A program made the translations under genes and the position numbers. DNA of 64,000 nt, from the NCBI RefSeq assembly GCF_016612505.1, contig NZ_JAENRR010000028.1, positions 1 to 64,000 of the forward strand, read 5' to 3'. Below are positions 4,756 through 64,000 of the stretch, in pieces. Numbering within the stretch: position 1 is the first letter of the stretch; each line of letters begins with the position of its first letter. The notes beneath the pieces are model-generated. The model was not told the origin of the DNA and searched no databases. It saw nothing but the letters and a program-made list of their open reading frames with translations. The stretch comes from Carboxylicivirga marina (GTDB taxonomy: Bacteria > Bacteroidota > Bacteroidia > Bacteroidales > Marinilabiliaceae).

Positions 4756-7422
4756 ATGAAGCAAGCAAGTATATTGGCAATAGTGCTTATTTTACTAAGT
4801 TGTCAGCAAGAACAAAAGACCATTTATCAGGCTGATAATTATACAATTTTCAGTAACAAAGTCGAGCAAGGCGAATATACTGCCGAGGTTCATTCTCCCT
4901 ATCACATCACATCTGATTACCAAAGTCCGGCCAATGCCACTTTTCCTAATCTTATTGAATTTAAATTCGCCATTAATGGCAAGGACAATGAATTACCCAT
5001 TGGCGTAAACCACACTTTCTTGCTTCAAGTCAATGAGCATCATAAAATAGAGCTACCTGTTCTTAAATTTGGCGAGCGCCACCCCGATGAAAAACAGAGC
5101 AATCCCACCGGAAGTATTGAGCCTAACACGCCGCTGATCATTAAGCTTGATGCGAGCGCTATAACACAATCTCTAAAAGACAAAGGCTACTACGAAACCT
5201 ATAATGGCCAGAAAATCTATCAGGAAGATTTTAGCGGCATTTACATTGCTGGTAACCTGGCACCTTTGGGTTGGGATTTTGATAACCTCAATGGTAGAAC
5301 TGATCGACAATTAAAAGATGACAATGGAGATGGTATTTTTGAAATTACCCTTGAATTAAACCCATACAATCCCGATGATTTTACAGCCAATGAGTGGCAG
5401 CTGAAAAACGATATTAGCAACTACCCTCAGCTCAAAAGCTCAACGCCCTTAGTAAATGCTCTATACAATTTGGCATTGGATGAGACTGAGATGAATATCG
5501 AGAGCGATGGCACCTTTAGAACCGGAGAAGAGTGGCCAGGTGTGTGGACACGCGATGTGAGCTATTCGATTCTACTGGCTTATGCTTTCACCAACACCGA
5601 AGTGGCCAAAACCAGCCTGATGCGCAAAGTAAAAAACAATCGCATCATACAAGATACCGGAACGGGTGGTGCCTGGCCCATTTCATCAGACCGAACCACA
5701 TGGGCATTGGCAGCTTGGGAAATTTATAAAGTAACGGGCGATGAGCAATGGCTAAAAACCATCTATTCCATCATCAAAAATTCGGTGGATGACGATATGC
5801 AGACGCTAAAAGATAAGCGTTCAAACTTAATTAAAGGCGAATCGTCGTTTTTAGACTGGCGAAAGCAAACATATCCAGACTGGATGAATGGGGTCGACAT
5901 CTTCGAATCTCGTACTTTGGGAACCAATGCGGTGCATGCTCAAACCTACCAGATTTTGGCAGATATAGCAACCTTGCTTGGTGAGAATGGCGACATATAC
6001 CAAGCCGAAGCCGAAAGGGTTAAAGCAGCGATTAACAAAGAGCTTTGGTTGGATACCAAAGGCTATTACGCCCAGTTTCTATATGGCCGTAATCACCTGT
6101 CTGTTTCTCCGCGCAGCGAAGCATTGGGTGAGGCTTTCACAGTACTATTTGACATTGCTGATAATGGCAGAGCAGCACAAGCTGTAAGCAATACACCAGT
6201 TGTTGACTACGGGGTGCCTTGTATTTATCCGCAGATACCAGAAATACCTCCTTACCATAACAACGGCATCTGGCCATTTGTGCAAGCATACTGGAATTGG
6301 GCCTGTGCCAAAGCTGGCAACACATCCGCTTTAGAGCAAGGCTTAGCCGGCATGCATCGGGCAGCAGCGCTTTTTCTTACTAATAAAGAAAACATGGTGG
6401 CCGACAATGGTGACTTTCGCGATACAGAAGTCAACTCTAACCGCCAGTTATGGAGCGTAGCTGGCTACCTAAGCTCGGTATATCGTCTTTTTGCTGGTAT
6501 TCACTTCGAATTAGACGGCCTTCATTTCAAACCATTTATCCCTCATGCTTATGGTGATGAGTTGGTACTTACAAACTTTAAATATCGCGAAGCAACACTA
6601 GACATCACCATTAAGGGCAATGGTTCCGAAATTCAAGCTTTTACCATTGACGGACAAAGCAGCAAAGCAGTTATTGACAAATCAATAAAAGGCCATCATA
6701 CCATTGAAATTGTACTGAGCAGTAACCCACAGTTTGCCATGGGAAAAGAGGCTTCTGAAAATGCATTTTCGCTTAAAACACCTCGCATAACAGCCCATCG
6801 GAATAAACTTAAGTGGAACGAAATTGATGGCGCCACATCCTATCAGCTTATTCGTAATGGCGCCATCATAGCCACCACATCCAATACCAATTACGTTGTT
6901 GAGGGCACTAATTTTTATCAAGAATTTAGCATAAAGGCTGTTGATGAATCCAATGAATCATTTTTGAGCAATGTCATCACATTTTTACCGGAAAACTACC
7001 CTGGTATTGATGCAAGTAACATCGGTATAAAAGGTGAATTAAATGCCAACGGTTATACGGGCCAGGGGTACATCGAATTATCCAATGATTTAAACACGCT
7101 TATTAGCACCACTTTTACAGCTAAAAGAGCTGGCAAATACCTCATTCGCGGGCGATACAGCAATGGTTCAGGTCCCGATAATACAGATAACAAATGTGCG
7201 ATTCGTACTGTATCGGTTAACGGCAACAAGGCTGGCGTAATGGTGATGCCGCAGCGGGGACGAAATGAGTGGTCAAACTGGGGCTGCACCAACCTTATTG
7301 AGGTGGAATTAAGAAAAGGTAAAAACCAGCTTCAGCTGTCGTTTGAAGATTACAATAACAACATGAATGGGGAAGTTAACCGCGCCTTGCTAGATGAGAT
7401 AATTCTTATTCCTGTTGAGTAA
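4756..7422 (+). CDS. Six-hairpin glycoside hydrolase-like lipoprotein
   Basis: The protein has 888 residues and a lipoprotein signal with Cys16 (LLSC). The first 230 residues are beta-rich and contain a short segment reminiscent of Ca-binding or CBM folds (DDNGDGIFEITLEL). Residues about 230-620 resemble an (alpha/alpha)6 barrel of the GH63/GH78/MGH1-like type, with GVWTRDVSYS near 260, SFLDWR near 370, and later GIWPFVQAYWNWA and QLWSVAGYLSSVYRLFAG. Acidic residues in WTRD, LDWR and NGDFRDTE are catalytic candidates. Residues about 740-888 look like a galactose-binding or CBM35-like module (TGQGYIELSN, AGKYLIRGRYSNG). The exact GH family was not identified. It probably acts in the periplasm or at the cell surface on oligosaccharides, beside the GH97 enzyme downstream. 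The stretch 4581-4755 holds no gene. Confidence 0.7.
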   Translation: MKQASILAIVLILLSCQQEQKTIYQADNYTIFSNKVEQGEYTAEVHSPYHITSDYQSPANATFPNLIEFKFAINGKDNELPIGVNHTFLLQVNEHHKIELPVLKFGERHPDEKQSNPTGSIEPNTPLIIKLDASAITQSLKDKGYYETYNGQKIYQEDFSGIYIAGNLAPLGWDFDNLNGRTDRQLKDDNGDGIFEITLELNPYNPDDFTANEWQLKNDISNYPQLKSSTPLVNALYNLALDETEMNIESDGTFRTGEEWPGVWTRDVSYSILLAYAFTNTEVAKTSLMRKVKNNRIIQDTGTGGAWPISSDRTTWALAAWEIYKVTGDEQWLKTIYSIIKNSVDDDMQTLKDKRSNLIKGESSFLDWRKQTYPDWMNGVDIFESRTLGTNAVHAQTYQILADIATLLGENGDIYQAEAERVKAAINKELWLDTKGYYAQFLYGRNHLSVSPRSEALGEAFTVLFDIADNGRAAQAVSNTPVVDYGVPCIYPQIPEIPPYHNNGIWPFVQAYWNWACAKAGNTSALEQGLAGMHRAAALFLTNKENMVADNGDFRDTEVNSNRQLWSVAGYLSSVYRLFAGIHFELDGLHFKPFIPHAYGDELVLTNFKYREATLDITIKGNGSEIQAFTIDGQSSKAVIDKSIKGHHTIEIVLSSNPQFAMGKEASENAFSLKTPRITAHRNKLKWNEIDGATSYQLIRNGAIIATTSNTNYVVEGTNFYQEFSIKAVDESNESFLSNVITFLPENYPGIDASNIGIKGELNANGYTGQGYIELSNDLNTLISTTFTAKRAGKYLIRGRYSNGSGPDNTDNKCAIRTVSVNGNKAGVMVMPQRGRNEWSNWGCTNLIEVELRKGKNQLQLSFEDYNNNMNGEVNRALLDEIILIPVE

Positions 7423-11224: not shown

Positions 11225-11564
11225 GGAGCACATGCAAATAAATGTAATGATGCTGTTATTCTATATTTCACAGAGCATTCTATTAATCTTCCCCATGGGG
11301 AAGTGCCGCAGGCGATGGGGGAATAGCCCTCCTACTGGTACGGATTTGTAGTCATTTTTATAAACAAAAACCCAGCCTTGAACAGCAAAGTTGATAACAT
11401 AAACACCTTCTGGATTGTGGAACTTATACTACGGCTCATAAATATTGGTTTTGGGCTGGCACCTTCAATAGCCCTACTGTAATGGAAGTCTTGGTGCTGA
11501 TTTCTAGTAACACAGATTACAAATCTGCGCTAGCATTGGGAGCACATGCAAATAAATGTAATGA
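11225..11564. repeat. 26-bp direct repeats bounding a gene-free segment
   Basis: The same 26-bp string, GGAGCACATGCA followed by AATAAATGTAATGA, occurs at 11225-11250 and 11539-11564, 314 bp apart. Between them lie a 33-bp palindromic element and, near the right end, CAGATTACAAATCTG (a palindrome around ACA). No transposase or credible frame is present. The arrangement fits a small insertion or a duplicated segment. The whole gap 11132-11602 has no other feature I can support. Confidence 0.65.
11288..11320 (+). repeat. 33-bp palindrome-plus-tail element
   Basis: CTTCCCCATGGGGAAG is a perfect 16-nt palindrome and is followed by TGCCGCAGGCGATGGGG. The copy at 13640-13672 differs at one base. 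The GCCGCAGGC part is itself a small hairpin. This resembles REP-like intergenic elements seen widely in Bacteroidota genomes. Confidence 0.7.
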
Positions 11565-11602: not shown

Positions 11603-12163
11603 TTATGGTTCGTAGCTATTTATGTTTAAATCAAAACGACCTTCTTTAATTTGGACTGCATTACCCTTGTCGCTAATGGCATCAAAATAAAATGTGCCTG
11701 AGATAATTAGTTCATCTAAATCAAACCTTGAAATGGTCACTTTTCCATTATAATTATCTCCATTTGTAAAGAAATATTCATCCGTATTGTTGGTGGAGTC
11801 ATTAAATCTAGCAGACGAACAATTCTCTAAAGATTCCATATTGAATGTAGAAGTTCCATTTAAAACAGAATCATTGCAAATCGTAAGATTAATAGTTTGA
11901 AAACTATTATTAGCTATTATAATCCATCGTCCGTCTTTATACTGATTGTTAACTACCCTATAAGGAGGCGTTGTAATCATACCTTTTTTCGGCAGCCACA
12001 CTTCTCCATTAACAAGGCAGCCAAAGGTATTTTCACCGCTTTGTGTTATGGGTGGTAGTTCAGGTGTTTTGTCGTCTTTTTCACAGCCACTTCCCATCAA
12101 TACAATACCTATAAGCATAATGGGCAGGGTGAGTTTACTAAAACTTAAAAGTTGTCTTTTCAT
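11603..12163 (-). CDS. Small DUF6252-like lipoprotein
   Basis: The inner ATG at 12163 is preferred because it places a standard lipoprotein signal at the N-terminus (MKRQLLSF..., Cys27 after MGSG), followed by the acidic EKDD. An upstream ATG at 12196 would add 11 residues. The mature part opens with NTFGCLVNGEVWLPKKG, the hallmark of the DUF6252-type beta-rich lipoproteins of Bacteroidota, and then has a set of beta-strands with two conserved cysteines (LTICND, LENCSSARF). Function is unknown. It lies on the minus strand, 90 bp downstream of the helical orphan gene, and may be cotranscribed with it. Context gives no further hint. Confidence 0.7.
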   Translation of the reverse strand: MKRQLLSFSKLTLPIMLIGIVLMGSGCEKDDKTPELPPITQSGENTFGCLVNGEVWLPKKGMITTPPYRVVNNQYKDGRWIIIANNSFQTINLTICNDSVLNGTSTFNMESLENCSSARFNDSTNNTDEYFFTNGDNYNGKVTISRFDLDELIISGTFYFDAISDKGNAVQIKEGRFDLNINSYEP

Positions 12164-12286
12164 TTTTCTGGCGATTTTAAAAGTGTTAATAAACATAAGA
12201 TTAATTGATTATTCTTTGGTTGCGTAATGGGATGCGATCTTTATTTGCGAGGTGGCAATAAAGATCGCATCCTTAAACTCCTGTCT

Positions 12287-12961
12287 TTACTCTTCTTCCA
12301 CCACTTTCATACCGGCACGCAGGTCCACAATAACCCTTGCTGCCAGGTAAGTATTGTACACCTTGGGCTGCTTGGCTTTTAGCAATTCCATCAACTTATC
12401 AATCTTGTTACGTAATAAGTCGTTGGCTTCACGCATCAAGCTATCCAGCTCTCTGGTGGCTTGCGAGCGGGTGACTATGGCCGAGCGAGGCGATGCAATA
12501 AGTGCCGAGAAATCGTCAATTTCTTTCTTTAGCTTCGTCACATCTTCCACTGTTTGTCCATAATCAACCAATCCATCTCCCAGTTTTACCGCTTCATCAT
12601 ACACATTTAAGCTGGTGACTTTTACTTCTCCATCAGTCATACGCTCCAGTTGCGAGGTTGAAATTGCACATTTAGCTTGCAGGTCGGGCATGTCGTTCAC
12701 CTGGGCATACACATACATGGTGGCGGCCAGTTTCACAGTTGCCTCAATCATCTCTGCCTCTTCTTTCAATTTCAACTGCCTGGCACCGGTGGTATTGCCT
12801 TGTTGAATCCGATGTACAGCTTCAATTTGCGCCAGCAGGTCATTAAATTTTACAATAAAACTTTCAAGGGCTTTAATCAGGCTTAGTTCGGCAGGGTAGG
12901 TGCCAAACACATTTCTCACGGCCAAAAACATGGCCAATCGGTTGCGTTGTATCGCATTCAT
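12287..12961 (-). CDS. Unrecognised all-helical protein
   Basis: I do not recognise a named family. The 224-residue product has no signal peptide or membrane segment and is predicted helical throughout. Long amphipathic stretches (KLKEEAEMIEATVKLAATMYVYAQV, given here only as the region near residues 65-90; EVKLGD- and TKLKKEIDDF-like parts near 130-160; LRNKIDKLMELLKAK near 185) suggest coiled coils. It has one Cys (LQAKCAIS). Base use is richer in G and C than the surrounding gaps. Upstream lie overlapping CTCATT/AATGAG palindromes and then a 21-bp repeat array. The tightly packed operator-like palindromes imply dedicated regulation. Confidence 0.6.
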   Translation of the reverse strand: MNAIQRNRLAMFLAVRNVFGTYPAELSLIKALESFIVKFNDLLAQIEAVHRIQQGNTTGARQLKLKEEAEMIEATVKLAATMYVYAQVNDMPDLQAKCAISTSQLERMTDGEVKVTSLNVYDEAVKLGDGLVDYGQTVEDVTKLKKEIDDFSALIASPRSAIVTRSQATRELDSLMREANDLLRNKIDKLMELLKAKQPKVYNTYLAARVIVDLRAGMKVVEEE

Positions 12962-12994
12962 AGTTTAACATTTAGTTAGTTAATAAAAATGAGC

Positions 12995-13014
12995 CTCATT
13001 AATGAGTACTCATT
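12995..13014 (-). promoter_or_regulatory. Overlapping palindromes, operator-like
   Basis: CTCATT, AATGAG and CTCATT follow each other at 12995, 13001 and 13009. The first two form a perfect 12-bp palindrome and the last two form AATGAGTACTCATT, a perfect 14-bp palindrome. The site is 34 bp upstream of the helical gene's start codon, where a repressor or activator could act. The regulator is unknown. Confidence 0.45.
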
Positions 13015-13082
13015 AGTTAATTGCAGAAATGTGAAAACGTAACATGTTTTTTTGGTGTTATTTTCGCCAGATGTGACGAACG

Positions 13083-13130
13083 CTTCCTTTTATTATGCAA
13101 ACGAACTGTATTTATGTGACGAAAAGGAAG
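13083..13130. repeat. Inverted repeat with flanking ATGTGACGAA copies
   Basis: CTTCCTTTT (13083-13091) is complementary to AAAAGGAAG (13122-13130). ATGTGACGAA precedes the left arm and also runs into the right arm. The spacer of 30 bp has no frame. The role is unknown; it could be an operator or an element end. Confidence 0.4.
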
Positions 13131-13165
13131 ATAAATCAATATAACATATTAACAATATATATAAT

Positions 13166-13630
13166 AGGATATGATACAGGCAGGATATGTAAAACCCTTA
13201 ACGGCCTATGTTATACCATTTATATTTCATAATGCGCTGGTATAATGCCGTCACATAATCAGCGTGGCTTTAGAAATGAAATGCACTAAAGGCGCATTTT
13301 GCTTGGTAAACGATATTAGGTCGTAAGCAGGGTATACATTTATGATAGCAGGCTATGTAAAGGCAACAGCTCAATATGTTAGCCTGTCAGAATGATATGT
13401 AAGCACTACAGCGGCGTTTGTATGACCATCAGCACAATGTACAATCAATGCTAGTAGCCTATGCATAAGCAACAGAACGGTATGTAAGACCGTTAGCGGA
13501 GTATGTGAGCTCAACAGTGTCGTATGCATGACTAACAGAGCGATATGTAAAGCCGTTAGCAGTGTATGTAATCACAACAGCAGCGTATGTAAGACCAACA
13601 GAATGATATGTAAGCCTGTCAGCACTCGCA
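13166..13630. repeat. Degenerate tandem array with 21-bp period
   Basis: ATG occurs at 13461, 13482, 13503, 13524, 13545, 13566, 13587 and 13608, eight units at exactly 21 bp. Three more in-phase units begin at 13355, 13376 and 13397, and an eroded pair at 13187 and 13208. The unit consensus is ATGTAAGnC, two or three variable bases, then CAG or TAG, and a variable end in rGT or GAT. A unit of 25 bp at 13397 breaks the phase once. Because 21 is seven codons, frames stay open, but no start codon or ribosome site fits a gene. It is not CRISPR: there is no invariant repeat alternating with unique spacers. The array ends against a palindromic element at 13640. Confidence 0.85.
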
Positions 13631-13639
13631 TATTCAAAT

Positions 13640-13672
13640 CTTCCCCATGGAGAAGTGCCGCAGGCGATGGGG
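13640..13672 (+). repeat. 33-bp palindrome-plus-tail element, second copy
   Basis: It is identical to 11288-11320 except for one G to A in the palindrome (CTTCCCCATGGAGAAG). It directly follows the 21-bp array. The rest of the gap, up to 13818, holds no feature I can support. Confidence 0.7.
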
Positions 13673-13818
13673 AAAACAATGCGAGATCCAACTGCATTTT
13701 CACACTTTGATGTGCCATGGAAGCATGCGAAACAAGCCCCTTCAGTCTTTCAGACAGCTTCCCCAGGGAAGCATTGATTCACATTGGATAAAGACTTTGC
13801 TTCTCCGTGCTTTTCTGT

Positions 13819-13863
13819 TAAACAAAAACGCCCCCTGCTGTTCGTTCACAACAAGAGGCGTTT
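13819..13863 (-). terminator. Terminator downstream of the GH20 gene
   Basis: On the minus strand AAACGCC (13863-13857) pairs with GGCGTTT (13832-13826), and the hairpin is followed by TTTTTGTTTAA. The loop is long, about 24 nt, but it contains partial pairing. It lies 116 bp after the GH20 stop codon. The stretch between is AT-rich, with TCTTATGTC-type strings. Confidence 0.6.
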
Positions 13864-13978
13864 ACTACTAACTACACCAAATTTTATTTAGATAATAGAA
13901 GCTAGACACAAGACAAGCATATTTATTTTTTGTCCTATTGTCTTACGTCTTTCTTCTTATGTCTTTTATCTTCAATAC

Positions 13979-16240
13979 TTACTTCACAATCACCTCATCT
14001 GAAAACAACCAGGCTTTACCACCAGCAGCCGGATGCCAAGCCGGACAAGTGCCCACACTCTCGGCTATGATGCGCACATAACGTGCTTTAGTGGCACTAA
14101 ATTCAGCCGGATAGTCTACAATTTCATTCACATCACTTTCGGTTACGCCAGGCTCAAAAGATGCCACTTCTTTAAACGTTGTACCATCTTCAGACAGCTC
14201 GTAACGTACCTTTTTAGGGCCAAAAACCCACGACATAGGTGCATTTTTAAAGCGGGAGTTAATATAGCTGATTTCTGTTGGCTCACCCATGTCAATGGTC
14301 AGGTCAATGGGCTTTTCTTCTACGCCCACCTCTACACCGAGGAATCCGTTGGTTAAACCATATTTACCACCACCATCATACTGAGGTGCATGGGCGTATT
14401 TTAGTACGTAAGGCTTGCCAAATGCTTTATGAAAAATGATTTCTTTCTCGGAGATAAAAGTAGTTGTACCATCCTCTTTAAACTGGCAGGCTTTAATGTG
14501 TGCATCTTCAGCTAAAACAAATGGGCCTCTATAAACAGTGCTGCGTGTAGTAGGCGTGCTGCCATCTTTTGTATAAAAAATAGTGTTAGGCCGCTCCGAA
14601 ACAAAGGCTAAAGTGGCTGACTTATTTTCATAATCAGGCTCCACATTAATGCGCACATGGTAACTGATATCACCTGCTTTGACTCCTAGCTTTTCAAGCA
14701 AAGGCAGAGTGTTGTTAACGCGCGCATAAAAGTCATCCCATTCGCTGATGACCGGACTCCAGGCCACTTCGGCAATGGCAAACACACGCGGAAACAAATT
14801 GTATTCGATGTGCTTAAATTCAGGCATGTATTCGCTCCACATATTGGCCTGCACACCAATCACGTGGTGACGGTTTTCAGGCGATATATCGGTAGGTATC
14901 GATGGGAAAGTATACACATCGCGCAAAGTGCTGATGCCCGGATGGCCAGGCGATGTACTCAGGTGATTCTGCGTGTGATTGAAATAGTATGGAAACATCG
15001 GTGTCATCACCACATCATGCCCGGCCTCGGCAGCTTTAACACCACCGGCCACACCACGCCACGACATCACCGCGGCACTCTGAGCCAATCCACCATCCAG
15101 TATTTCGTCCCAGCCAATTAATCGCCTGTTATGCTTATTGAGGAATTTTTCGATGCGATGCACAAAATAACTTTGTAACTCATGCTCGTCATGAGCGCCT
15201 TCTTCCTTCATTCGCTGGCGGCAATCAGGGCATGCCAGCCAGGTATCTTTTGGTGTTTCGTCGCCCCCGATGTGAATGAACTCACCAGGAAAAAGATCCA
15301 TTGTTTCGCTTAACACATCTTCCAGAAACTGAAAGGTTGTTTCTTTACCGGCACAATAAACACCAGCTGACACACCTGCCTGCTCCCATATTTCAAGTTC
15401 ACCAGCATTATTGCAATAATACTCAGGATATGCAACAAGAGCAGCAGCCGAATGCCCCGGTAATTCTATCTCAGGCACGATGGTAATATTACGTTCGGCG
15501 GCATAGGCTACTATCTCTCGTACATCTGCTTGTGTATAATATCCTCCGTAGGCTTCGGTATTTTGTACGTTCAAACCTTTCACCTGATTGGCAGTAAATC
15601 CAACATTCTCGCGCCAGGCACCTACCTCAGTGAGCTTGGGGTATTTCTTTATTTCCAATCGCCAAGCCTGATCATCCACCAAATGCCAATGAAAAGTATT
15701 GAGCTTGTTCATGGCCATATAATCCAGAAACTGCTTTATCTCATCCACATCAAAGAAATGACGCGACACATCAAAATGCATACCCCGCCAGGCAAAACGT
15801 GGAGAATCCTTGATGCTCACATAAGGGAGAACTACTCTTCCATTCTCAGGTGATAACAACTGACGAAGCGTTTGGGCTCCATATAATAAACCACTCTTTT
15901 CTGCTGCTTCTATCAACACCTGCTTCGGTGCCACTTTAAGGCGATACCCCTCGGCCGGTATTGTGGCATCATTAACAAGCTTAAACTTTACAAAACCATC
16001 TTCAGCATGGGCCAGTTGAATATTTTGCTCGGCCTTCAATTGCTTGTTTAATAAAGTCACCACAAAATCATCGTCAGACGAGACACTCAGCATCGCCACA
16101 TCAATTTTCAACTCGCCCTTCTCTTGATTTACTTCGGCCGGATAAGGAATTAAATTTAGCATCGGATTATCTCCTTTTTCTGAGCATGCCACCAGTAGAA
16201 ATATGCTCATTGTCGTTGCAATCAGTTGTTTTATTCTCAT
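13979..16240 (-). CDS. GH20 beta-N-acetylhexosaminidase lipoprotein
   Basis: The 753-residue enzyme removes terminal GlcNAc or GalNAc by substrate-assisted catalysis. It has a lipoprotein signal (LLVAC, Cys19), the GH20b N-terminal domain (about 25-145), a catalytic barrel (FAWRGMHFDVSRHFF, NTFHWHLVDDQAWR, VPEIELPGHS) and the acid pair Asp327-Glu328 in HIGGDETPK. Tryptophan-rich substrate loops are present (SWRGVAGG, QANMWSEYM). After the barrel come a small Fn3-like or chitobiase C-terminal-like stretch (YTKDGSTPTTRSTVYRGPF) and a CBM32/discoidin-like module (residues about 610-753). It probably sits in the periplasm or on the surface for host or algal glycan use. The GHL10-like gene lies directly upstream on the same strand. 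Confidence 0.95.
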   Translation of the reverse strand: MRIKQLIATTMSIFLLVACSEKGDNPMLNLIPYPAEVNQEKGELKIDVAMLSVSSDDDFVVTLLNKQLKAEQNIQLAHAEDGFVKFKLVNDATIPAEGYRLKVAPKQVLIEAAEKSGLLYGAQTLRQLLSPENGRVVLPYVSIKDSPRFAWRGMHFDVSRHFFDVDEIKQFLDYMAMNKLNTFHWHLVDDQAWRLEIKKYPKLTEVGAWRENVGFTANQVKGLNVQNTEAYGGYYTQADVREIVAYAAERNITIVPEIELPGHSAAALVAYPEYYCNNAGELEIWEQAGVSAGVYCAGKETTFQFLEDVLSETMDLFPGEFIHIGGDETPKDTWLACPDCRQRMKEEGAHDEHELQSYFVHRIEKFLNKHNRRLIGWDEILDGGLAQSAAVMSWRGVAGGVKAAEAGHDVVMTPMFPYYFNHTQNHLSTSPGHPGISTLRDVYTFPSIPTDISPENRHHVIGVQANMWSEYMPEFKHIEYNLFPRVFAIAEVAWSPVISEWDDFYARVNNTLPLLEKLGVKAGDISYHVRINVEPDYENKSATLAFVSERPNTIFYTKDGSTPTTRSTVYRGPFVLAEDAHIKACQFKEDGTTTFISEKEIIFHKAFGKPYVLKYAHAPQYDGGGKYGLTNGFLGVEVGVEEKPIDLTIDMGEPTEISYINSRFKNAPMSWVFGPKKVRYELSEDGTTFKEVASFEPGVTESDVNEIVDYPAEFSATKARYVRIIAESVGTCPAWHPAAGGKAWLFSDEVIVK

Positions 16241-63843: not shown

Positions 63844-64000
63844 ATACAAAACGTTTTTACATTGGCGCGGTGATAGTCGCAAGTGTTACAAGTCATATTC
63901 ACATGTATTCATTGTATATCGCTAATCTTACAAGTCACTTTCACATCGCCACAATGTCAGTCGCAGCAACTGCAAAGCACATTCGCACTGCCTCATTGTC
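63844..64000. repeat. Second 21-bp-periodic array, running off the window
   Basis: TTACAAGTCA occurs at 63886 and 63928, exactly 42 bp apart, and both are followed by TTCACAT 12 bp later. Cutting at 21 bp from 63886 aligns further units at 63907, 63949, 63970 and 63991 with a common pattern nTnCAAnTCAnnTTCrCA. The consensus differs from that of 13166-13630, but read on the minus strand it shares the TGTAA start. From 63690 one plus-strand frame is open to the end but without ATG, so a gene is not claimed. The repeat edge is outside the window. Confidence 0.7.

Follow-up and report, generated by a model that had tools for sequence, protein, structure and literature searches.

A tandem array of 21-bp units in Carboxylicivirga marina lies upstream of a gene for a 224-amino acid helical protein, and arrays with the same pitch, which equals two turns of the DNA helix, recur upstream of most homologues of that gene and upstream of the genes of a second protein family. 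Three features were computed across these loci: the gene-array association, the unchanging pitch, and the conservation of one face of the DNA. From such sequence patterns we infer, tentatively, that the array may be a non-coding DNA platform that forms one half of a two-part module with the neighboring helical protein, the encoded protein being the most likely binder. We lean toward this reading, which falls somewhat short of probable.

The main array of the window

We analyzed a stretch of 64,000 nucleotides, referred to here as the window. Its main array occupies positions 13333 to 13627 on the plus strand and consists of 14 units of 21 bp, which were delimited by a profile chain, a unit listing, and autocorrelation. 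The units have the consensus TATGTAAGnCC[A/G]ACAGCAnnG on the plus strand, which reads CTG..TTACATA on the strand of the neighboring gene. An earlier note on this DNA, made from the letters alone, had described eight units in strict 21-bp step. These are present, with ATG at 13461 to 13608, and the array is real. The chain scored 178.7, compared with a top score of 11.8 in shuffles (one per locus, 40 loci), using a profile built from own-genome units with the window's own units among them; a single step within it measures 22 bp, and the unit at 13439 is poor. The unit profile was kept fixed, because iterating it freely led into A/T-rich noise. TRF recovered the same stretch with periods of 63 bp and 21 bp. 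By autocorrelation, an analysis that the earlier note had proposed, the match fraction of 13333 to 13628 was 0.48, 0.47, and 0.52 for periods of 21, 42, and 63, respectively. The 21-bp periodicity exceeded all 5,000 shuffles of this stretch, none of which went above 0.390 when every period between 5 and 63 was considered. When the 64-kb window was scanned in 105-bp stretches for periods of 15 to 45, a match fraction of at least 0.5 was reached at two places only, namely the main array and position 63854 (period 42).

Conservation within the units is uneven. Among 32 own-genome units, A was present at column 15 in 32, G at column 16 in 31, and C or T at column 14 in 30, and columns 8 to 13 and 17 to 21 were more variable than columns 14 to 16. 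These counts come from the 32 units kept out of 38 in three own-genome arrays; units were kept when their first seven letters were among seven listed variants, which biases columns 1 to 7.

More eroded units had also been proposed upstream of the eight regular ones, and this was borne out in part. Two remnant units, recognized by reading the sequence, lie at about 13165 to 13206 (plus strand) and align with that edge of the array on contig C77 of the same genome which faces the gene. They sit on the gene side of a dispersed repeat of ~110 bp (about 13207 to 13318), which interrupts the array, occupies the place of the other supposed eroded units, and has own-genome copies at C160:248-344 and C119:27342-27452. 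A REP-like palindromic element (CTTCCCCAT...GATGGGGAA) occurs twice in the window, at 11288 to 11322 and 13640 to 13674; the second copy is absent from the C77 paralogue, where the flanking CTTCCCCA is single.

Gene, promoter-proximal block, and array form a module

The array had been described as having no obvious gene. An open reading frame on the minus strand, at 12287 to 12961, had been missed: it encodes the 224-amino acid helical protein, and the array lies upstream, 371 bp away from the start of the frame. It is the conserved neighboring gene that the earlier note had recommended looking for. Between gene and array, conservation marks a promoter-proximal block at 13000 to 13049 (minus strand), which contains the palindrome TAATGAGTACTCATTA at 13000 to 13015. 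The block is conserved in five close homologues and in part in two more. We regard it as the putative promoter of the helical-protein gene, and the palindrome is likely the operator for another regulator. An inverted repeat just 3' of the gene, at 12230 to 12272, was found as an inverted match to C77 44872-44830 and is probably the terminator of the gene. The whole module (inverted repeat, gene, promoter block, and array), at 12174 to 13651 on the minus strand, has a close copy at G000:C77:44774-46165, matching at 91.8% over 1,021 columns and 94.3% over 174 columns. The two encoded proteins are 98% identical.

The second array of the window is built of 42-bp double units on the plus strand and, by the period scan, runs from 63774 (an approximate start) to 64000 and on to about C127:64026. 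Its motif, TTACAAGTCA / CATTGT, is unlike that of the main array, and alternate halves look inverted. It lies upstream of the gene for a 31%-identical homologue (C127:64097-64723), which is located beyond the window end.

The helical protein and its family

The window protein matched no Pfam or NCBIfam family, and comparison of family members with Pfam, NCBIfam, PHROGs, and PADLOC gave weak matches only, mostly for one member each. The AF2 model of the window protein consists of helices only (pLDDT 83.9, pTM 0.53). Searches with this model using Foldseek and VIA-align returned nothing at an E value of 0.001 or better. The best structural Z score was 8.2, to a designed helix bundle and a PilJ domain, a value in the range common for helical models that excludes no fold, and the best match in a PDB profile search was no better than E = 0.22. 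No DNA-binding domain was recognized by the Pfam/NCBIfam and fold searches, and the pI of the family is near neutral (median 6.0, n = 59). These two properties are real objections to the encoded protein as the binder.

Homologues of the window protein were found in 26 of 60 relatives and in 17 of 395 phylum genomes, with the own genome included in each count, and there are several homologues per genome among the relatives. A scan of named genomes yielded 18 homologue loci, of which 16 were from Carboxylicivirga or Marinilabiliaceae, one from a "Bacteroidetes" MAG, and one from "Ignavibacteria"; we take the phylum to be Bacteroidota because of the names of genomes with homologue loci. The window protein had no match among 72,556 plasmid records and 50,697 phage records, and no viral contig was confirmed. 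Two relatives (L113 and L131) have a C-terminal CarboxypepD_reg domain, and the sequences of two others (L167 and L168) end in what is presumably an FN3-type domain.

Arrays lie upstream of most homologues

An array with a period of 21 or 42 bp was present within 1,500 bp upstream at 74 of 95 homologue loci, compared with 6 of 92 downstream. The same was seen after the proteins were thinned to less than 70% identity (57 of 73 upstream, 5 of 72 downstream), less than 50% (38 of 49 and 2 of 48), and less than 40% (32 of 43 and 2 of 42); 7 of the 95 proteins, which are under 120 amino acids, were left out of the thinned counts. Control tiles of 1,500 bp covering 399 kb of the own genome contained an array in 7 of 260 cases, and among these seven were some coding repeats and an array that precedes a PQLLE gene. 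The best period among 14 to 45 was 21 or 42 at 76 of the 95 loci (53 of the first 63 and 23 of the remaining 32). An array was called when fixed-width autocorrelation was at least 0.5, a threshold that was set after the first loci had been seen and applied at the same value to the controls.

The locus set derives from 98 matches (65 from relatives, 31 non-own from phylum genomes, and L150 and L151), from which three loci with less than 250 bp upstream (L032, L176, and L250) were dropped. The first 63 loci are mostly better matches with longer flanks. They had 54 upstream arrays and 1 of 61 downstream, where the downstream stretch extended up to 800 bp for some and up to 1,500 bp elsewhere, and at 2 loci any of 20 shuffles reached the threshold. 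The other 32 loci, a good number of which are broken or more distantly related, gave a weaker result than the first 63, with 20 upstream arrays and 5 of 31 downstream. The 21 of 95 homologues without an upstream array at threshold include some that are fragments or lie at contig ends. At L243, L081, and L085, an array was present downstream (0.96, 0.59, and 0.74) and none upstream. The upstream array of L172 had a period of 16 (0.97) beside a 42-bp signal of 0.80, and L153 and L163 preferred a period of 20. The number of units counted in an array ranged from 5 to 25, and some arrays came closer than 100 bp to the start codon.

The association of gene and array holds from the array side too. 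A pattern search that began with the array picked out G131, in which about 225 bp separate a TATGTAA array from the start of a homologue. This genome belongs to another family of the same order, and its homologue is 22 to 29% identical in the longer hits listed.

Pitch and helical face are conserved as letters change

The letters of the units differ among lineages (examples are GTAAACGACAATATTCGGAAA, CAAAAACCATTCGGAGTTCTG, and TTCGCTTGCCTTGAAGTCGTT). Fourier analysis of information content in the units of 53 arrays gave a mode-2 (10.5 bp) power of 0.272, compared with 0.101 in permuted columns (z = 13.3). Column permutation ignores the correlation between neighbors and overstates z; block permutation keeps this correlation and provides the stricter figure, with z values of 10.2, 7.9, 7.2, and 5.9 for blocks of 2, 3, 4, and 5 columns. 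For mode 1, the power did not exceed expectation once blocks comprised 3 or more columns. The mode-2 signal was also present in 27 arrays of proteins less than 40% identical (z = 7.4 for columns and 4.2 for blocks of 3), and mode 2 was the largest mode in 27 of the 53 arrays only. The 53 arrays are those of the first locus set, minus ten loci at which no 21-bp array was clear. A DNA site that presents the same helical face in every unit, as the earlier note had envisaged, agrees with this 10.5-bp conservation period, which was also seen in 26 PQLLE arrays.

The alternative that had been offered alongside it, a bent segment, found no support in the form of phased A-tracts: A+T content showed no mode-2 phase at 10.5 bp (z = 1.3 in the 53 arrays and 1.0 in the 26 PQLLE arrays), a figure that concerns A+T content and not curvature. 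The array is not a CRISPR, as had been recognized from the letters; its 21-bp units adjoin and there are no unique spacers between constant repeats.

A decayed or active gene for heptapeptide repeats had likewise been suggested. This reading draws on the unit length, 21 bp being seven codons, and on the 13 of 30 arrays with at least one stop-free frame, but it retains next to no probability: the other 17 arrays are interrupted by stops in every one of the six frames, codon-phase conservation was found in 0 of 53 arrays and 0 of 26 PQLLE arrays, and no frame had a consistent synonymous excess. That the array acts as RNA, either as a repeated leader or as a small RNA, is highly improbable. The array is upstream of the gene and sometimes less than 100 bp from the start codon, which would suit a leader, but on neither strand did the window array fold better than shuffles (z = +0.48 and +0.98) and positions 12000 to 14000 had no Rfam match. 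Furthermore, the array lies beyond the conserved promoter-like block in close homologues, and a period of 10.5 bp in conservation is compatible with B-form DNA and not with single-stranded RNA. Because conservation follows a 10.5-bp period with no codon phase and no RNA fold, the feature seems to be one of double-stranded DNA, read on a single face.

Array letters track the protein

Array letters track the protein, in the gene's orientation only. On the gene's strand, array-profile similarity was 0.26 at less than 20% protein identity, 0.41 at 60 to 70%, and 0.77 at 70 to 90%; on the opposite strand, it was 0.25 to 0.31 throughout. A Mantel comparison of array similarity with protein identity gave r = 0.30 (P = 0.0005, 52 arrays). 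This tracking is in part the shared ancestry of gene and flank, and co-inheritance without recognition would give a similar result.

A second protein family has upstream arrays

The control array at L188:5037-5200 lies upstream of a gene (5299-5946) that belongs to PQLLE, the NCBIfam family NF052641 (E = 3.9e-74). Our comparison rests on the name, length, and cut-off of this entry, which as seen gives a length of about 211 amino acids, states no function, and does not include an upstream array in its definition. A search of an open-access library for the name PQLLE found no paper. PQLLE genes were found in 36 of 70 relatives and 4 of 198 phylum genomes, with the own genome in each count. Like the window family, PQLLE has several copies per genome and 21-bp arrays upstream. 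Upstream arrays were present at 26 of 38 PQLLE loci, compared with 2 of 36 downstream and 0 of 38 in shuffles, and the best period was 21 or 42 at 24 of 38. There were 39 PQLLE loci, of which L205 was dropped for having no tblastn match, and further PQLLE matches without a locus are not in the count. In the 26 arrays, which were picked by eye for statistics, mode-2 z was 7.5 for columns and 4.2 and 3.0 for blocks of 3 and 5. PQLLE repeats the array pattern in a second protein set.

The window family and PQLLE may be distant kin. A profile comparison between them gave a weak match (probability 70.6, E = 3.9e-5) over 95 columns that include a YGxT motif. The window protein had no match to the PQLLE model at E = 0.01 and did not reach the curated cut-off of 80 bits, and the model matched 4 of 24 window-family members at E = 0.01 or better (best 0.0042).

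Arrays also stand without either gene

The earlier note had held that an array found nowhere else in the genus would probably be a local product of slippage. This is not so: the motif of the main array recurs in the own genome on C77 (17 units) and C111 (13 units), and seven genomes of the genus, including that of the window, carry arrays of it. The motif occupies at least four sites in the genus. Site 1, that of the window, has gene and array in G000 (the own genome) and G010 and the array only in G007, and the G004 copy shares one flank with the G010 copy; we take the flanks to be uracil-DNA glycosylase and hexosaminidase genes. At site 2, next to a presumed carB-like gene, gene and array are present in G000 and G010 and the array only in G003. 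Site 3, whose neighbor is presumably glyA and which holds the own-genome C111 array, has gene and array in G003 and G002, the gene without a clear array in G006, and the array only in G000. Site 4 has the array only, in G011, G009, and G007.

Beside the seven gene-less motif arrays we found no remnant of the gene or of the promoter-proximal block, the latter sought with a loose pattern. These arrays were identified by an exact TATGTAA-N14-TATGTAA search, which biases columns 1 to 7 and leaves columns 15 and 16 unbiased. A15 and G16 were kept at 0.89 and 0.93 in their 87 units, compared with 0.94 and 0.97 in 78 units of gene-linked arrays. G007, G009, and G011 keep the motif in gene-less arrays, and their nearest homologues are 48 to 56% identical and have other cis motifs.

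Four own-genome arrays have other motifs (L185:18243-18450, L196:1525-1770, L199:17869-18080, and L201:12425-12650) and are intergenic, with periods of 21 or 42. Neither family gene was found near them in the stretch examined, which for L185 and L196 is at most 1.6 kb on one side. Their similarity to seven own-genome cis arrays was at most 0.47, compared with 0.91 to 0.95 among kin. In G031, four near-identical 21-bp arrays (L121-L124) consist of TATGTAACATGGATACGTGG units, which share TATGTAA in an otherwise different unit, and neither family gene was found beside them in the stretch examined. Eleven of the arrays examined had neither family gene in the stretch considered. These arrays, together with the homologues that have no upstream array, stand against an exclusive gene-array pair. 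Since arrays can stand alone, a trans-acting reader must exist if such arrays are functional.

A proposed platform for a helical protein

According to the reading that we tentatively prefer, one protein subunit would occupy each 21 bp in a direction-sensitive manner and contact one DNA face at each turn, and subunits would line up head to tail on 5 to 25 units to form a nucleoprotein patch. The most likely binder would be the encoded helical protein or a complex holding it, and a partner protein could make the DNA contact instead. Three things make the encoded protein the best candidate: its motif follows it, unlike motifs coexist within a genome, and two helical families have arrays. The binder may control its own promoter in cis, with gene-less arrays of the same motif used in trans. 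Because the array lies beyond the promoter-like palindrome block in close homologues, it could plausibly regulate transcription of its own gene, but the orphan arrays demonstrate that there must be more to its role. A bolder extension, which we consider unlikely, is that the fast-diverging long-helix proteins of the window family and PQLLE each polymerize on a private array, head to tail with one subunit per two turns. They would then constitute a new chromosomal DNA-organizing system in Bacteroidota, in which the extra arrays would be trans anchors. If so, the arrays would be address tags for several unlike pairs per genome, which could serve, for example, chromosome folding, anchoring, or self-specific silencing.

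Much of the evidence that raises doubts about the encoded protein could also be accommodated if one or more other DNA-binding factors bound the arrays, with the helical-protein genes as regulated targets and the role of the protein unrelated; every finding on the arrays themselves would then stand. Orphan arrays keep the motif in genomes without a close homologue, further arrays adjoin no family gene, a fifth of the homologues have no array, and the helical protein is neither basic nor in possession of a recognized DNA-binding domain. We nonetheless consider this account somewhat doubtful. Array letters vary by lineage and follow the gene; a single host factor leads one to expect one motif per genome, but one genome has several unlike motifs; and the presence of arrays at two helical families, perhaps distantly related, would be left unexplained. 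The close copies at two own-genome sites, the sites in the genus with and without the gene, and the several homologues per genome would suit a selfish or mobile module in which the array is a region for transposition, targeting, or immunity. This is quite unlikely, as no transposase or integrase family was matched, the searches of plasmid, phage, and viral sequences with the window protein gave no match or confirmed contig, neither terminal repeats nor target duplications were established, and the sites are common to different species. Unit duplication is evident from the 42- and 63-bp higher-order repeats and from near-identical neighboring units in some arrays, as a neutral minisatellite produced by slippage or unequal exchange would show. 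Such an origin for the arrays as a whole is very improbable: a period of 21 or 42 is kept across unlike sequences, arrays are far commoner upstream than downstream, the units show helical conservation, and gene-less arrays keep A15 and G16, which lie outside the search motif. Coding repeat, CRISPR, slippage, RNA leader, and A-tract bend all fail or are disfavored.

Intergenic repeats that resemble junk DNA in single genomes are now tied to two families of unknown function, and the tie rests on a 21-bp pitch that survives the change of letters. If the helical protein binds the array, it would do so by a mode of recognition without a recognized DNA-binding fold, and a family that is nameless in the libraries searched would acquire a function. 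If it does not bind, something else in such bacteria would read two-turn arrays.

Comparison with known repeat systems

Among the results listed in our searches of an open-access library, there was no description of such 21-bp arrays. Plasmid iterons are tandem direct repeats near 21 bp (about 17 to 22 bp) that lie beside the gene for their binding protein and act in replication or partition. The window array resembles iterons in being made of tandem direct repeats of 21 bp. It differs from them in that the adjacent protein matched no Rep or Par family and had no plasmid-record match, that the G002 homologue and its array lie on a contig of 6,271,090 bases, and that gene-less arrays occur at other sites.

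BrickBuilt, a MITE of Porphyromonas gingivalis, has a 23-nt unit of one sequence, with a leader and a tail that have inverted-repeat ends (abstract of PMC4596501). Like BrickBuilt, the window arrays are intergenic and tandem and occur in several copies in Bacteroidales; unlike BrickBuilt, for which that abstract names no gene family, they are tied to one. TAACTGA heptamers are 7-nt units of fixed sequence that lie mostly several nucleotides from start codons in the genome studied (abstract of PMC4679880). They too are intergenic direct repeats upstream of genes, in some Bacteroidetes among others, whereas the abstract links them to no protein family and the window arrays are gene-linked.

The BldC operators of Streptomyces, as outlined in part of PMC5859096, are direct repeats of varying number on which BldC forms a cooperative head-to-tail filament, with periodic changes on about one DNA face. 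The window arrays are likewise direct repeats of variable number, with conservation computed to fall on one DNA face. BldC itself is MerR-like, has 68 residues, and uses sites of 9 bp (PMC5859096). Profile searches recognized no MerR-like wHTH in the helical protein, the model of which contains helices only. Unlike BldC operators, the arrays described here have a 21-bp pitch and 5 to 25 units, and they are associated with an unclassified long-helix protein.
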